Assembly (NCBI GenBank): GCA_016872645.1
Contig: VGZH01000007.1
Location: 1-64,000 of the forward strand
Direction of reading: 5' to 3'
DNA: 64,000 bases
Source: Planctomycetota bacterium
Lineage (GTDB): Bacteria > Planctomycetota > Planctomycetia > Planctomycetales > Planctomycetaceae
The position numbers and the translations under genes are program-made. Each line of letters starts with the position of its first letter. Position 1 is the stretch's first letter. This document shows, piece by piece, positions 3,056-43,006 of this stretch. Under the pieces are notes generated by a model that made no database searches, was not told where the DNA came from, and was given only the letters and a program-made list of their open reading frames with translations.

Positions 3056-3411
3056 AGCCGCCATTGCGGAGTTTGGGAGCTCTTGTCTGCTCCAGTTCGC
3101 ACTCGTCTCGTCAACAAATTTAGATCTTCGGGCTTTGAGCTAGGAGGTGTTTCATTACAATTCCCTGCTACTGCGGTCGGACTAGGATGCTGGCTGGTCT
3201 TTTTTAAACGGTGGCCTTTGGCGAGGTCTTCTTCGGTGACGAAGCAGCGACGCCTCAGTTTTCTCAGGTGCGATCATGCCTCACGGCAAGGACACGACAA
3301 CTCGTTGGAATCTGAGCGCGCCCATGTCGGACGGCATGTTGGGTCGATGGGGTTTGCTCGGACTGGCTTAGCTTTTCTTACCCTTTTGCGCTGGAAGCGT
3401 ATCGAAACAAA

Positions 3412-4893
3412 ATGCAGCACCAGATTCGATTTGACGGAAAGTTGCTGATTCTGGGTTGTGGAAGCGTGGCTCAATGCACGATCCCGCTCTTGCTCAGGCA
3501 CATTCAGATGCCGGCGGGTCGAGTCACGGTGATGGACGTGCGGGACAACCGCGACGGCATCGCGCAACCGCTTGGCAGCGGCGTGAAGTACGTCCAAGAG
3601 CGGCTGACCAAAGGCAAGTACCGTGAGCAGCTTGGCCGCTACTTGGGGCCGGGCGACATCCTGATTGATCTCGCGTGGAATTTGCAGACGACCGATCTGC
3701 TCGATTGGTGCCGCCAGAATGGAGTGCGGTACATCAACACGTCGGTCGAGGTTTGGGATCCCTACGAAGGGATGAAGCGGCGGCCGATCACCGAGTTGAC
3801 GTTGTATCACCGGCACATGCAGCTTCGGAAAATGATTGACCGCTGGGGGGACAATCACGGCCCGACGGCGGTGCTCGATCACGGTGCGAACCCCGGCCTC
3901 GTATCGCACTTCACCAAGCAGGCTTTGCTGCAAATCTCCCGGCGGATCATCGAGGACCGGCCGCGCAATCGTCGCATTCCCGCACTGTGGCGAGCCATCG
4001 AACGTTTGTCGTTCAATGAATTAGCCATGCTCAGCGGTGTGAAGGTCATTCATATTTCCGAACGGGACACGCAGAAATCCAGTCAGAAGAAAACCGCTGA
4101 CGAATTCGTCAACACGTGGAGTGTCGAAGGGCTCTACGAAGAGGGGATCGCTCCTGCCGAACTCGGCTGGGGGACGCACGAAAAGCGACTGCCCCACGAC
4201 GCTCGCGAGCACACACACGGGCCGCGCAACCAGATCTGTTTGGAGCGGCGCGGGATCAATACCTGGGTTCGCTCGTGGTGCCCGTCGGGCGAGATGCGCG
4301 GCATGGTGATCCGCCACGGCGAAGCCTTCAGCATCTCCGAACGACTGACCTGCGTGGACGAAGAAGGTGGCGTGATCTATCGACCGACGGTTCATTACGC
4401 CTACTGCCCGTGCGACGATGCGATCGGATCGCTCGATGAACTTCGCAGCAACGAGTACCAGCGGCATCGCCACGAACGCATTCTCCGCAATGAGATTGTC
4501 TCCGGCCGCGATGAGTTGGGCTGCCTGTTGATGGGGCACGATTACAAGTCGTGGTGGATTGGCAGCATGCTCGACATCGATGAATCGCGACGGCTGGTTC
4601 CCGGACAGAATCCGACCACGGTTCAAGTTGCCTCGTCCGTGCTGGGCGCGTTGTTCTGGATGATTCGCAATCCCGAAAAGGGAGTGAAGCTGCCGGACGA
4701 TTTGCCGCACGAAGAGGTGCTCGATATTGCGATGCCGTATCTCGGCCCGTTCATTTCCCAGCCGGTCGACTGGTCGCCGCGGTTGAACGGACTGCACGAC
4801 TCGGCCAAGAAGAATGGCAAAACCAACAAGTTTCGCGACAACAACGACGAGCATGAAGACTGGCAGTTCGAGCAATTCTTGATAGCGACGTGA
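3412..4893 (+). CDS. hss: Homospermidine synthase
   Basis: N-terminal Rossmann LILGCGSVAQCTIPLL; GANPGLVSHF, IHISERDTQ, EFVNTWSVEG, PAELGWGTHE, YRPTVHYAYCPCDDA, DELGCLLMGH and TPYLGP-like MPYLGPF match bacterial homospermidine synthases. Confidence 0.92.
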   Translation: MQHQIRFDGKLLILGCGSVAQCTIPLLLRHIQMPAGRVTVMDVRDNRDGIAQPLGSGVKYVQERLTKGKYREQLGRYLGPGDILIDLAWNLQTTDLLDWCRQNGVRYINTSVEVWDPYEGMKRRPITELTLYHRHMQLRKMIDRWGDNHGPTAVLDHGANPGLVSHFTKQALLQISRRIIEDRPRNRRIPALWRAIERLSFNELAMLSGVKVIHISERDTQKSSQKKTADEFVNTWSVEGLYEEGIAPAELGWGTHEKRLPHDAREHTHGPRNQICLERRGINTWVRSWCPSGEMRGMVIRHGEAFSISERLTCVDEEGGVIYRPTVHYAYCPCDDAIGSLDELRSNEYQRHRHERILRNEIVSGRDELGCLLMGHDYKSWWIGSMLDIDESRRLVPGQNPTTVQVASSVLGALFWMIRNPEKGVKLPDDLPHEEVLDIAMPYLGPFISQPVDWSPRLNGLHDSAKKNGKTNKFRDNNDEHEDWQFEQFLIAT

Positions 4894-38008: not shown

Positions 38009-39592
38009 ATGCCGTATGAAACCATGCGCTTTATCCATGCGGCGCGATTGTCGGTGGATCAACCGTTGGGCGATACCGGAGTCATCGCCCCGGACCTGCG
38101 CGGACTGACGCGCGACGCGACCACGCAAGCCTTTCGAAATCTCGTGGCGGCGTGCTTGGAGCGCGACGTCGATTTCTTGTTGCTCACCGGCGACACGCTG
38201 GAGCAATCCGATTACAGCATCAAGGCTCGTGTCGAGTTGCGACGCGGGTTTGAGCAACTCGACGATGCGGGCATCCAAGTCTTTCTTGTTCCCGGCAAGA
38301 GCGACCCGATCGCCGTCTGGGACGATTTTCCTGAACTCCCGGGCAACGTCACTGTTTTTCGTCCGGAAACAGATGATCCCGTCGCCGTGTTGCGAGACGG
38401 CTCGGTCATCGCTTCGATCCGGGCACTGAACTGGCGGCAACCGTGGTTTAACTGGGACGACGAAGAGCCACGCGCCGATCGCACGCAGCGCCGCAAAAAA
38501 GAAGCAGATGATGCGGAAAACTTGCTCGATAAGACCAAGCCGCAGACGAAGTCGCTGGGCGACGTTTCCGAACTCGACGACCAATCGCTGGACGGCCTCG
38601 ACGCGACCGACCTCGTAACTCCCGCGCGGCACGAAGCTCATCGTGAGATTCGCCGCGTGCAATCCCCTGCCGAATTGCGGCCGAATCATTTCGCCATCGC
38701 CATCGTGCGCGACGGTATCGATCAACCCGGCAACGATCCGCAGGCCGATTACCTGGCCGTCGTCGGCGGCTGTGAGCGAACGACCTCCAAGGGCGCGGAT
38801 TGGCTGATGCACTTTCCCGGCGGCACTCAAGGCCGCACGCCCGAAGAATCGGGTTTGCATGGCTGCTCACTGGTGGACCTCGACAGCGACGGCGTCATTC
38901 GCTGTCGATTCCTGCCGACTGCGCCGGTGCGCTGGGAGTCGTTTGAACTCGGCATCGATACCGACACGACTTTTCAGCAGTTGGTGAAGCGTGCACAAAC
39001 CGCTTGTCGAGAACTCTGCGGAGTCGAATCGAAGCCCGAACAAGGACGCCTCGTCGCCGAATACGGCGATGCCGCCGACGAGAAATCCGAAAAGGAATTT
39101 TCCCGTAGCCCGACCCCTTGTGGGTCGAAGGATTCTGTCGCCACGTCGAATCTCTCAGGCCACAAGGGCCTGGGCTACAGTGGAGCTCAAGCCTGCTTCC
39201 TGCGTTGGACGATCCGCGGCTATGGGCCGTTGTTTGAGGCCTTGTTCAAAGACGAAATGCAAACCGAGTTGATCGAGTGGCTCGATGACGATGTGCATTG
39301 GCCACTGGAAGTCGCGCGTCTGCACCGCATCCGCCTGATCGCCGCCGAACCACCCGTCACTCGCGCGGATGCGGACGATGAACAACTTGACGTTGCGACT
39401 GAATTCTTCTGGCGACTCGATCAGGCTCAACCGCTCGGCAACTCGGCGTGGAACGATCTCGGCGGAGATTCGTCGATCGAGCGCGAACACTTCGCGCGCA
39501 TTCAGGCGGCGAACGCCGCAGGAGACGCGGCAGTCGTCCTTGGCCTTGCTCGTTGCCGTGGTTGGAAATGGTTCCGAGCGGCAAGTACGTAA
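38009..39592 (+). CDS. YhaO/SbcD-like protein with degenerate metallophosphoesterase domain
   Basis: MRFIHAARLSVDQPL...VDFLLLTGDTLEQS...GIQVFLVPGKSD...ADYLAVVGGCERT...FPGGTQGRTPEESGLHGCSLVDLD aligns by eye to the YhaO/SbcD pattern but lacks the catalytic residues. Immediately upstream of the YhaN-like ATPase. Confidence 0.8.
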   Translation: MPYETMRFIHAARLSVDQPLGDTGVIAPDLRGLTRDATTQAFRNLVAACLERDVDFLLLTGDTLEQSDYSIKARVELRRGFEQLDDAGIQVFLVPGKSDPIAVWDDFPELPGNVTVFRPETDDPVAVLRDGSVIASIRALNWRQPWFNWDDEEPRADRTQRRKKEADDAENLLDKTKPQTKSLGDVSELDDQSLDGLDATDLVTPARHEAHREIRRVQSPAELRPNHFAIAIVRDGIDQPGNDPQADYLAVVGGCERTTSKGADWLMHFPGGTQGRTPEESGLHGCSLVDLDSDGVIRCRFLPTAPVRWESFELGIDTDTTFQQLVKRAQTACRELCGVESKPEQGRLVAEYGDAADEKSEKEFSRSPTPCGSKDSVATSNLSGHKGLGYSGAQACFLRWTIRGYGPLFEALFKDEMQTELIEWLDDDVHWPLEVARLHRIRLIAAEPPVTRADADDEQLDVATEFFWRLDQAQPLGNSAWNDLGGDSSIEREHFARIQAANAAGDAAVVLGLARCRGWKWFRAAST

Positions 39593-39655
39593 CTGATAGT
39601 TGGCCCACCCTACGAATGTCAGACAGAACACGAGTCGCACAAGGATGAGCACTCG

Positions 39656-42600
39656 ATGAAGATCACTGAAATCGAGATCGAACAATTTGGTCCGTGGAAC
39701 CAGCTCTCCCTGCCGATCGCCGGCGAAGGGTTGACGGTCGTCTCCGGCGCGAACGAGTCGGGCAAATCGGCGCTGCGGCGTTTCATTCGTGGCGTGCTTT
39801 TCGGCTTTCAGGCTGAGGACTCGCGGCGGCGGCCGAATGTCGGCGCATTACAAATCCGGCATCGCGGTCGGCTGTTTGAGATTCGCCGAGCCGCTCATGA
39901 CGGCGGCGGCGGTTTGGTCACATCCCGCTGGCTCACCCCCGCGAACGCCCCGCGGTCGCACGGCAACAGCCTGATCGAGCACTGCGATTTCGAAATCGAA
40001 GATGAGGCCGAAGAGGAAACGCTGTTCGAACCCGACGCGGCGACGTTGCCGTTGACCGACGCGCTGTCCGATGTTGTCGGCGGCCTCTCCGAAAAGCTAT
40101 TCGATCAAATTTTCTCGCTGGGGCTGAGTCAGCTCCACGAACTGTCGCATCTTGCGGATGACGATGTCGCAAAGGCGATTCACGGCGAAACGCTCGGACC
40201 GTTCGCACAAACGCTGCTCGCCGCGCGCGACGAGATGTCGCACAACTCCGATCAGCTGTGGGACGAGGCTCGGCAGAACGCACTGCCGTCGCTGCTGGCT
40301 CGGTACGAACAACTCAGCGAGCACGTTGAGGCTCAAGAGCAACGACTGAATCGCTACCGCGATGTGATCCGCCTGCGACGGCATCACGAACGACGGCTGG
40401 TCGAATTGCAATCGCGACGCTCGCAGTTTCAAGAATCGCTGCACGCCTACACGCACATCGAACGAGTGTGGACTCCGTGGCAACGACTGCGCAACTTACA
40501 GGCCGAGCTGTTGCGGTTCCCTCGCATCGACGACTTCCCGGAAGGGGGTATCGCCCGTTTCGATCACATCGAACAGGAATTGCAGACGGCTCTGAAATGT
40601 CGCGAGGCATTGATCGGCGAGGCGAAGCAGTTCCATCGGGATGCCAAGAGGATTACCGTCGCCCGCGAATTGCGCCGTTCTTCGGCATCGATGCGGGCGC
40701 TGCTCGATCAGCGCGAGCACATCGGCCGTGTCGAAGAACGTGCGCGAGCCTCGTATGCGACTGTCGAACAGCAGAAGGAAAAATTCGATGCGGCGGTGAC
40801 GTCGCTGGGTGAAGGCTGGACGACGGCGAAGCTTGAAGCCTTAGACACGTCCGTTGCGGCTCATTACCGGCTCGTCGAGAAAGCTCGGCAGTTCCGCAGA
40901 GCGGTTGCGAAACGGAACAAGTGGAAGCAGCGACTGACTCGGCTGTCGCAGCAATGCCAGCAGCAGTCGTCCGAACTGGAAGCAGCGTCAAAGAAGTTGC
41001 GCGGCATCAGCCTCGAAGACGCACTGCGGCGAGCGAGACAACAGCGAGCGGGGGCGAACCCATCGATCCCCGTGGCTCGCGCCGTCTCGACGATCAGCAC
41101 GAGTGACCCGGAGATCGAGCACCTGCATGCGCGGATCGTCGAACTCGAACAGCGGCGTGTCAGCATCTCGCGGCAGATTGAGCGGCTCGAACCACGACTG
41201 ATTCTGCCGAAGTGGGTGCTGGGAGTGCTCGGCTTCTTCGCGGTCGGAGGCGTCGTGCTGGCGTTACTTGGCCTGGTGACCGGGTTTTCCACAAACGCGC
41301 TGGCCGGGGCGGCGTACGCGCTGCTCGGCACCGTTTGCGGCGGGCTGGCATTGTCGCTGAAGCTGCACTTCGAACAACAAGTCCGCGACAGCCTCAACGC
41401 GATGAATGACGAACTGCGTGAAAACGAAGCCCGCCTGCGAGAAGCTCGCGAGTCGTGGCAGGCTCTCACGGGGATGTTGAGTCAAACCGCCCCGATGCGT
41501 GAGGGAGGGCGAACGGACGAGGATCCCTCGCTGGCGCTGCGGGTGAGTGTGGACCAAACCACATCTGGGTCAGGCGAGCAGCCCGTCGGCTTAATTGCGG
41601 GCGGGCTGCTTTCCAACGCCGCGAGTCGCGACGAGGAATTCACCGTCGAGGAACTCGAATGGCTCATCGAGTCGAAACGCGAGTTGGCTCGCAATCAACA
41701 AAAGCGAACTCCGTGGCGAACGCGGTTCGATGCGGTGGCTCAAGAGTTGTCCGCCGCGCGACAATCGTGGTGCGACGCGCTCAAACAACTCGGTCTGCCG
41801 GAGAGTGTCCGCGTCGCCGAGACCTTCGATCTGTGGCAACGACTCGCTGCGGCGAACGAGTTGTTCAAAGCGTTCCAATCGGCTGAGGCGGAATTCAAGC
41901 GGCATCTCGAAGGAGTGCAGACGACTCGCAGTCGCATCGTCGAACTGCTGCATCGCCTGAACCGCCGCGATCTCGAACAGCGAACGACCGCTGACGTCTT
42001 CCAGATTTGGGACGAAGAGCTCGCGAAACTTACCGCGATATTGCAAGATCGATTGCGACTCCGCCGCGAAGAACGTCGCCGCCGAGCGGAAGCGTCTGAG
42101 TACTCCGAGAAAATCGATGACTTGCGTTTGCAGCGTTCGGCGCTTTTGCGACAAGGCTGCGCGACCGATCGAGACGACTATACGCGTCGAGCGATCATCG
42201 TCGAGCGACACGAACAACTGCACGATCAGATCGACGCGACCAAGGCGGAACTGGAAGCCGCCGGCCGAGCGAATCCCGAATTGACGATTGTCGAGGATGA
42301 CCTCATTCGATTTGACGTCAGTTCGCACGCCACGACGCTGACGAACCTGCGCCGCGAATCGGGCGATACCGACGCCGAGATCGAACGACTCCACGAAGAA
42401 CTCGGCAAGGCACGTCACGAGATTGAGGAGATGGAAGCGGATGACGCACCTTCCGACGTGCGGCTGGATCGGGAGATCATCCGCTCACAAATCAAAACTC
42501 TCGCCGAAGAATGGCTGGCCGATGGCTGGACGGCGCAAGCCATCGACGGCATCTGCGCCCAGTACGAACGAGTCTGTCAGCCGGGAATTCTCGCCGCCGC

Positions 42601-43006
42601 GTCGCGTCACTTTGCTCGGCTCACCTCAGGCAAGTATCGCAAGCTGTGGACACCGCTCCGTCATCGCTCACTGCGCGTCGATGATGCAAACAGCACGACA
42701 TGGCAATTGGAACAACTCAGCGGCAGTACTCGTGAGTTGCTGCTGCTGGCAATCCGACTGGCCCTCGTCGAGGACTACAGCCGCCGCGGCATCAACCTGC
42801 CCCTGCTGTTGGATGATGTGCTGCTGACGCTCGATCCGTCGCGAGCCGCCATCGCCGCGAATGAGCTCGTGGCCTTCGCTCAACGCGGTCATCAAGTCCT
42901 GTTTTTCACCTGCCACCCGCACCTGACGAGCTTGTTCACGAACGCAGGATGCCCGAATCTACGGCTCAGCCAATTCGCCGCAACGACCGAGCGACTGGCG
43001 GGGTAG
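39656..43006 (+). CDS. YhaN/SbcC-like AAA ATPase, coiled coil with central membrane segment
   Basis: MKITEIEIEQFGPWNQLSLPI; Walker A SGANESGKSALRRFI; long coiled coils; hydrophobic segment LPKWVLGVLGFFAVGGVVLALLGLVTGF...ALAGAAYALLGTVCGGLAL; signature LSGSTRELLLLAIRLAL; Walker B LPLLLDDVLLTLD. Confidence 0.88.
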   Translation: MKITEIEIEQFGPWNQLSLPIAGEGLTVVSGANESGKSALRRFIRGVLFGFQAEDSRRRPNVGALQIRHRGRLFEIRRAAHDGGGGLVTSRWLTPANAPRSHGNSLIEHCDFEIEDEAEEETLFEPDAATLPLTDALSDVVGGLSEKLFDQIFSLGLSQLHELSHLADDDVAKAIHGETLGPFAQTLLAARDEMSHNSDQLWDEARQNALPSLLARYEQLSEHVEAQEQRLNRYRDVIRLRRHHERRLVELQSRRSQFQESLHAYTHIERVWTPWQRLRNLQAELLRFPRIDDFPEGGIARFDHIEQELQTALKCREALIGEAKQFHRDAKRITVARELRRSSASMRALLDQREHIGRVEERARASYATVEQQKEKFDAAVTSLGEGWTTAKLEALDTSVAAHYRLVEKARQFRRAVAKRNKWKQRLTRLSQQCQQQSSELEAASKKLRGISLEDALRRARQQRAGANPSIPVARAVSTISTSDPEIEHLHARIVELEQRRVSISRQIERLEPRLILPKWVLGVLGFFAVGGVVLALLGLVTGFSTNALAGAAYALLGTVCGGLALSLKLHFEQQVRDSLNAMNDELRENEARLREARESWQALTGMLSQTAPMREGGRTDEDPSLALRVSVDQTTSGSGEQPVGLIAGGLLSNAASRDEEFTVEELEWLIESKRELARNQQKRTPWRTRFDAVAQELSAARQSWCDALKQLGLPESVRVAETFDLWQRLAAANELFKAFQSAEAEFKRHLEGVQTTRSRIVELLHRLNRRDLEQRTTADVFQIWDEELAKLTAILQDRLRLRREERRRRAEASEYSEKIDDLRLQRSALLRQGCATDRDDYTRRAIIVERHEQLHDQIDATKAELEAAGRANPELTIVEDDLIRFDVSSHATTLTNLRRESGDTDAEIERLHEELGKARHEIEEMEADDAPSDVRLDREIIRSQIKTLAEEWLADGWTAQAIDGICAQYERVCQPGILAAASRHFARLTSGKYRKLWTPLRHRSLRVDDANSTTWQLEQLSGSTRELLLLAIRLALVEDYSRRGINLPLLLDDVLLTLDPSRAAIAANELVAFAQRGHQVLFFTCHPHLTSLFTNAGCPNLRLSQFAATTERLAG

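Follow-up and report, generated by a model that had tools for sequence, protein, structure and literature searches.

Can the nuclease activity of Mre11 be uncoupled from the holding and signaling functions of the Mre11-Rad50 complex? This old question has so far been approached mostly with engineered mutants. A locus in a planctomycete genome (assembly GCA_016872645.1, here G000; completeness 99.99%) raises it in a natural setting. In a 64,000-nucleotide stretch of contig VGZH01000007.1, hereafter the window, a gene for a YhaO/SbcD-like protein with eroded catalytic motifs precedes a gene for a YhaN-like ATPase. What might such a pair do if its nuclease no longer cuts?

The gene pair and its catalytic residues

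The locus consists of two genes, which are supported by the evidence given in parentheses.

38009-39592, + strand: P0001, YhaO-like pseudo-nuclease with a Mre11/SbcD fold, 527 amino acids (open reading frame, PDB profile matches, AlphaFold and Foldseek)
39656-43006, + strand: P0002, YhaN-like Rad50/SMC-type ATPase of the AAA_27 family, 1116 amino acids (open reading frame, profile, fold)

Both open reading frames lie where the original prediction placed them and contain the peptides that it quoted. They are separated by 63 bp on the same strand, with the yhaO gene directly 5' of the AAA_27 ATPase gene. This order is common to the other loci compared, nearly all of which keep the pair, and the same two genes occur in 11 of 11 sampled congeners. 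No third operon gene conserved with the pair beyond the genus was found among the loci compared.

P0001 is a true homologue of Mre11 and SbcD despite its weak Pfam and NCBIfam scores. HMM profiles, which had been proposed as a check, give only weak matches to Pfam Metallophos (E 0.054, under the family cut-off) and NCBIfam sbcd (E 0.19). However, a PDB search with a profile built from 56 relatives finds SbcD and Mre11 among the solved structures at E 5.8e-17, and the best 50 Foldseek matches listed for the P0001 model are Mre11 or SbcD in all 50 cases. The AlphaFold model has a mean pLDDT of 77, with a phosphoesterase core mostly at 78-98 and two disordered linkers. The alignment behind this model took in intact relatives, which may push it towards a Mre11 look. 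Because the profile result is independent of the model, the homology that it indicates stands apart from any such effect.

One disordered linker carries an in-frame inverted-repeat element of about 75 bp (39104-39181). The element is dispersed, occurs 20 or more times in the genome and has a predicted fold of about -44 kcal/mol. One congener has a separate in-frame copy in the corresponding linker (L051:8103-8210), which the other congeners lack.

Mre11 binds metal 1 through D8, H10, D49 and H208 and metal 2 through D49, N84, H173 and H206, with H85 acting as a catalytic residue (PfMre11 numbering). H85 is an essential histidine in Mre11 (PMC4996933). These residue numbers were put on P0001 by motif alignment, which gives the following elements.

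38030-38068, + strand: motif I remnant FIHAARLSVDQPL (canonical FxHAADxHLDxPx); D8 and H10 lost
38177-38206, + strand: motif II remnant LLLTGDTLEQ; bridging Asp D62 kept
38288-38308, + strand: motif III remnant VPGKSDP (canonical xGNHDP); N84 and catalytic H85 lost, D99-P100 kept
38690-38716, + strand: motif IV remnant FAIAIVRDG; H173 lost, in a column that is aligned less surely
38750-38782, + strand: motif V remnant YLAVVGGCERT (canonical YWALGHxH); H206 and H208 lost
38813-38881, + strand: retained non-catalytic segment FPGGTQGRTPEESGLHGCSLVDL (alignment, conservation)
39548-39577, + strand: conserved C-terminal helix ARCRGWKWFR, a possible ATPase-binding element (model, alignment)

At the eight catalytic positions, the residues of intact relatives are D H D N H H H H, of which P0001 retains the third only. 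The original prediction held that all catalytic metal-ligand motifs were missing. This is correct for seven of the eight residues, but the bridging Asp D62, equivalent to D49, is kept within LLLTGD. In many relatives, Asn occupies this position. A Ser stands where GNHD has its catalytic His. The motif IV His column adjoins a long insertion, so the alignment is less sure at this point; the equivalent strand of the P0001 model (residues 228-234) contains no His. With the D49 equivalent alone left, P0001 does not possess the two-metal active site of the Mre11/SbcD family. The non-catalytic segment FPGGTQGRTPEESGLHGCSLVDL is retained, as had been described.

Residues G61, G96, D99, P100 and W104 around the old pocket of P0001 remain conserved. 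Relocation of the ligands elsewhere in the protein was considered and provisionally rejected: no conserved replacement cluster was found in sequences of the window clade, in which, however, conservation of H268 and H439 is new. W104, H268, W400 and H439 (window 38318-39325) have become near-invariant in the dead clade, where they could possibly form a new site.

Distribution and history of the degenerate pair

In each of the 11 congeners sampled, YhaO keeps the D49 equivalent only, as P0001 does. A scan of named genomes was run with the ATPase as query. Across the class, the ATPase is found at E <= 1e-60 in 76 of 148 genomes, including 39 of the window's family, and the 20 that are listed among the 72 non-matching genomes all belong to other families. 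The protein encoded 5' of the ATPase is degenerate in each of 53 further class genomes (53/53), with a maximum of five of eight residues; one of these loci (L220) is truncated where its contig ends.

In total, 128 degenerate homologues were compared. H206, the first His of GHxH, is absent from all of them (128/128), N84 remains in two and H85 in eight. Site 1 is complete in 36 and site 2 in none. Among planctomycetes, as many as five residues (D8, H10, D49, H173 and H208) survive in the clade that contains Rhodopirellula, Adhaeretor and Neorhodopirellula, and zero to two in that of the window and Fuerstiella. At two loci from one genus of the window's family (L225 and L226, genomes G407 and G018), the upstream partners are extremely diverged (E 1e-17 to 1e-22), with almost no motif columns left.

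Outside the planctomycetes, membrane-type YhaO proteins from Paenibacillus, Chloroflexi, Acidobacteria, Methanosarcina, Myxococcus, Nitrospina and others have 8 of 8 residues; the exceptions among these loci are L182 from Verrucomicrobia, which is degenerate, and L141, whose N-terminus is masked. The L182 protein (3345-4625) reads DHGLGHSM. It is degenerate independently, and catalytic loss therefore happened more than once. A few intact membrane-type YhaO proteins occur elsewhere in the planctomycete phylum, and one congener (L031, G010) has one beside the dead pair.

The original description of a nuclease-dead SbcCD/YhaON-like pair is strongly supported, and all orthologues found are degenerate. 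The alignment of orthologues, run as had been suggested, reveals a conserved loss; intact orthologues, a sign of recent decay, were not found in it.

Dead, site-1-keeping and intact groups separate in the YhaO tree. When the ligand columns and their neighbors are removed, the degenerate proteins (L182 excluded) still fall on one side of a branch with support 99. The possibility that motif columns drive the topology is rejected by this result. The ATPase tree independently places the degenerate pairs in a single 58-row clade (support 100), which divides into the same halves with support of 99 for each. Both trees are quick, with long branches and no outgroup, and one ancestral loss followed by repeated losses of site 1 is their simplest reading rather than proof. 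On this evidence, the loss is ancient, most likely dating from early in the class, and has been maintained.

Across the genus, the Nei-Gojobori method gives median omega values of 0.14 (P0001) and 0.13 (P0002). In P0001, the core parts have values of 0.11 and 0.07 (the lowest), the C-terminal part 0.10, and the linkers 0.29 and 0.36. Judged by these substitution rates, the pair is under strong purifying selection. Recent decay or sequencing error is rejected by the open frames in the sampled genus genomes, the low omega and the presence of degenerate orthologues throughout the class.

The ATPase, its membrane hairpin and related systems

P0002 matches Rad50 in profile searches and Rad50/SMC proteins in the fold of its model. 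Its main elements are as follows.

39746-39769, + strand: Walker A, GANESGKS (motif, alignment)
41207-41278, + strand: first transmembrane helix, at the coiled-coil tip (hydropathy, conservation; helix 519-541 in the model)
41291-41356, + strand: second transmembrane helix (hydropathy, conservation, model)
42716-42736, + strand: signature LSGSTRE, with Gly1024 replaced by Ser in this genus
42803-42835, + strand: Walker B and D-loop, LLLDDVLLTLD, with Asn1058 replaced by Thr in this genus

The claim that the ATPase motifs are intact holds for Walker A and Walker B. The H-loop is also kept, with a single gap among the 32 rows of the alignment. The signature is present but altered, reading LSGST in P0002 versus LSxGT in most relatives. 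Both the Gly to Ser change and that of Asn1058 to Thr are genus-specific. Because the signature Gly is replaced, ATP turnover by P0002 may be altered and perhaps weak in this genus.

A pair of hydrophobic helices (approximately residues 518-541 and 546-567) lies between the coiled-coil arms of P0002, at the position where Rad50 carries its zinc hook. A sequence scan of P0002 found no CxxC zinc hook. The hydropathy peak of 2.48 is not extreme by shuffling alone (shuffles mean 1.64, maximum 3.08), but the hairpin is accepted as real because membrane-type relatives conserve it at the same position. The central hydrophobic pair that had been noticed in the sequence is thus genuine. All membrane-type ATPases checked have the hairpin, whether their partner is dead or intact, and soluble canonical ones do not. 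The hairpin is common to relatives with an intact nuclease and hence did not arise with nuclease loss; from this distribution, membrane anchoring most likely came first. The original prediction of a membrane-associated sensor gains support for its membrane part, although the hairpin is most likely older than the loss.

Among the closest known systems is the membrane type of YhaO-YhaN, represented by loci from Paenibacillus, Chloroflexi, Acidobacteria and Methanosarcina and, by name only, by Bacillus YhaO/YhaN. The planctomycete pair shares its gene order, AAA_27 ATPase, coiled-coil-tip hairpin and the DPxxxW segment after motif III. These systems keep all eight catalytic residues (8/8), whereas in the planctomycete clade site 2 is gone and site 1 mostly so. 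The pair resembles SbcCD and Mre11-Rad50 in its Mre11 fold, which includes capping and C-terminal helices, and in its Rad50-like heads and coiled coil. In contrast to them, it has no nuclease active site, a membrane hairpin replaces the zinc hook, and the P0002 Walker B has DD instead of DE, a trait of the YhaN group. Open-access publications yielded no account of a nuclease-dead YhaO or of a membrane-type YhaN.

A precedent for a change of role exists in the B-subunits of eukaryotic replicative DNA polymerases, which have a calcineurin-like phosphoesterase fold, have lost catalysis and now act as scaffolds (PMC4996933). They belong to a different complex and offer an analogy only, as the match of P0001 to PF04042 is insignificant (E 0.29). 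P0002 also matches the model for LmuB, the Rad50-like component of Lamassu (LmuABC), at E 1.4e-13. Unlike Lamassu, the pair has no adjoining LmuA effector or LmuC, carries a membrane hairpin and is inherited family-wide rather than patchily. Assignment to Lamassu or another defense system was rejected, given that LmuB is the only Lamassu component matched, PADLOC models do not match P0001 and no third gene is conserved beyond the genus.

The pair amounts to a natural experiment in which the separation of nuclease from complex has been made and then kept by much of a bacterial class, and its graded intermediates allow direct comparison. It also points to a membrane-anchored branch of the family that has received little study, and to the cell biology of planctomycetes. 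The transfer of 'exonuclease' or 'SbcD' labels to such proteins by annotation pipelines would mislead.

Possible functions of the complex

A proposal for function can start from the features that computational analysis establishes: fold, pairing, motif loss, purifying selection, hairpin and clade-wide conservation. From its residues, P0001 is predicted, very likely correctly, to be without nuclease activity. P0001 and P0002 likely form a complex, and it is moderately likely that DNA tethering or sensing is the job of the pair. P0002 would dimerize via its ATP-binding heads, while the hairpin at the coiled-coil tip would fix it in the membrane. P0001 would bridge the heads by its Mre11 fold and C-terminal helices and could offer a surface for holding DNA or for regulation. 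ATP binding and release would toggle the complex between engaged and open states. In this way, DNA ends or structured DNA might be held, tethered or sensed at the membrane without being cut.

Studies of active complexes bear on this mechanism. The H84Q mutant of SbcCD is nuclease-deficient, with ATPase activity reduced by about 15% (PMC6265447), so the two activities are separable. In the ATP-bound state of Mre11-Rad50, the nuclease is blocked, and tethering and ATM activation are promoted (PMC6315862). We consider the chances evenly balanced that the pair is a membrane-anchored complex of the Mre11-Rad50 type whose pseudo-nuclease makes it an ATP-gated, non-cutting DNA tether or sensor. A broader evolutionary version is tentative and somewhat doubtful. 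It holds that a bacterial class may have made a membrane Mre11-Rad50-like complex into a permanent non-cutting tether or sensor of DNA. Site 2 and usually the catalytic His would have been lost first, site 1 later in several lineages, and in some members this would be the only Mre11-family complex left.

The complex might instead operate off DNA, either sensing envelope or membrane stress or working as a mechanical device driven by ATP, and its remodeled P0001 pocket would bind another ligand or a protein. The membrane hairpin and the five residues still conserved at the old pocket are consistent with such a role. Moreover, the newly conserved His and Trp residues of P0001 leave room both for a new ligand site and for this explanation. 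However, it is unlikely, as all relationships of the pair are to machines that act on DNA ends, and intact relatives with the same hairpin retain the nuclease active site.

A weak or different metal-dependent activity is quite improbable. It could take the form of one-metal hydrolysis in the site-1-keeping clade, where all four site-1 ligands persist (36 of 128 relatives), or of a new site in the dead clade, where H268 and H439 are new. Against both forms, H85 is missing from 120 of the 128 relatives and site 2 from every one (128/128), and no conserved replacement cluster is seen in window clade sequences.

There is a slim chance that P0001 has a regulatory role, in which it recruits another nuclease or keeps it in check; AddAB or an intact paralogue could be that nuclease. 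The window's genome encodes other metallophosphoesterases and an AddB-like PDDEXK nuclease. Some relatives carry SbcD (G005 and G006) or an intact YhaO. However, no third gene is conserved with the pair, and the window's genome has neither SbcD nor a second YhaN above the cut-off. Several genomes, including this one, have no intact SbcD or YhaO above the cut-off, so an intact paralogue cannot be the general partner, and a role for P0001 as helper of such a paralogue was rejected as not general.

That the genes are decaying remnants without function, as the progressive loss of ligands across the class might suggest, is scarcely credible, since it is contradicted by open frames in all sampled genus genomes, retention throughout the clade and omega values of 0.07-0.11 in the core domains.
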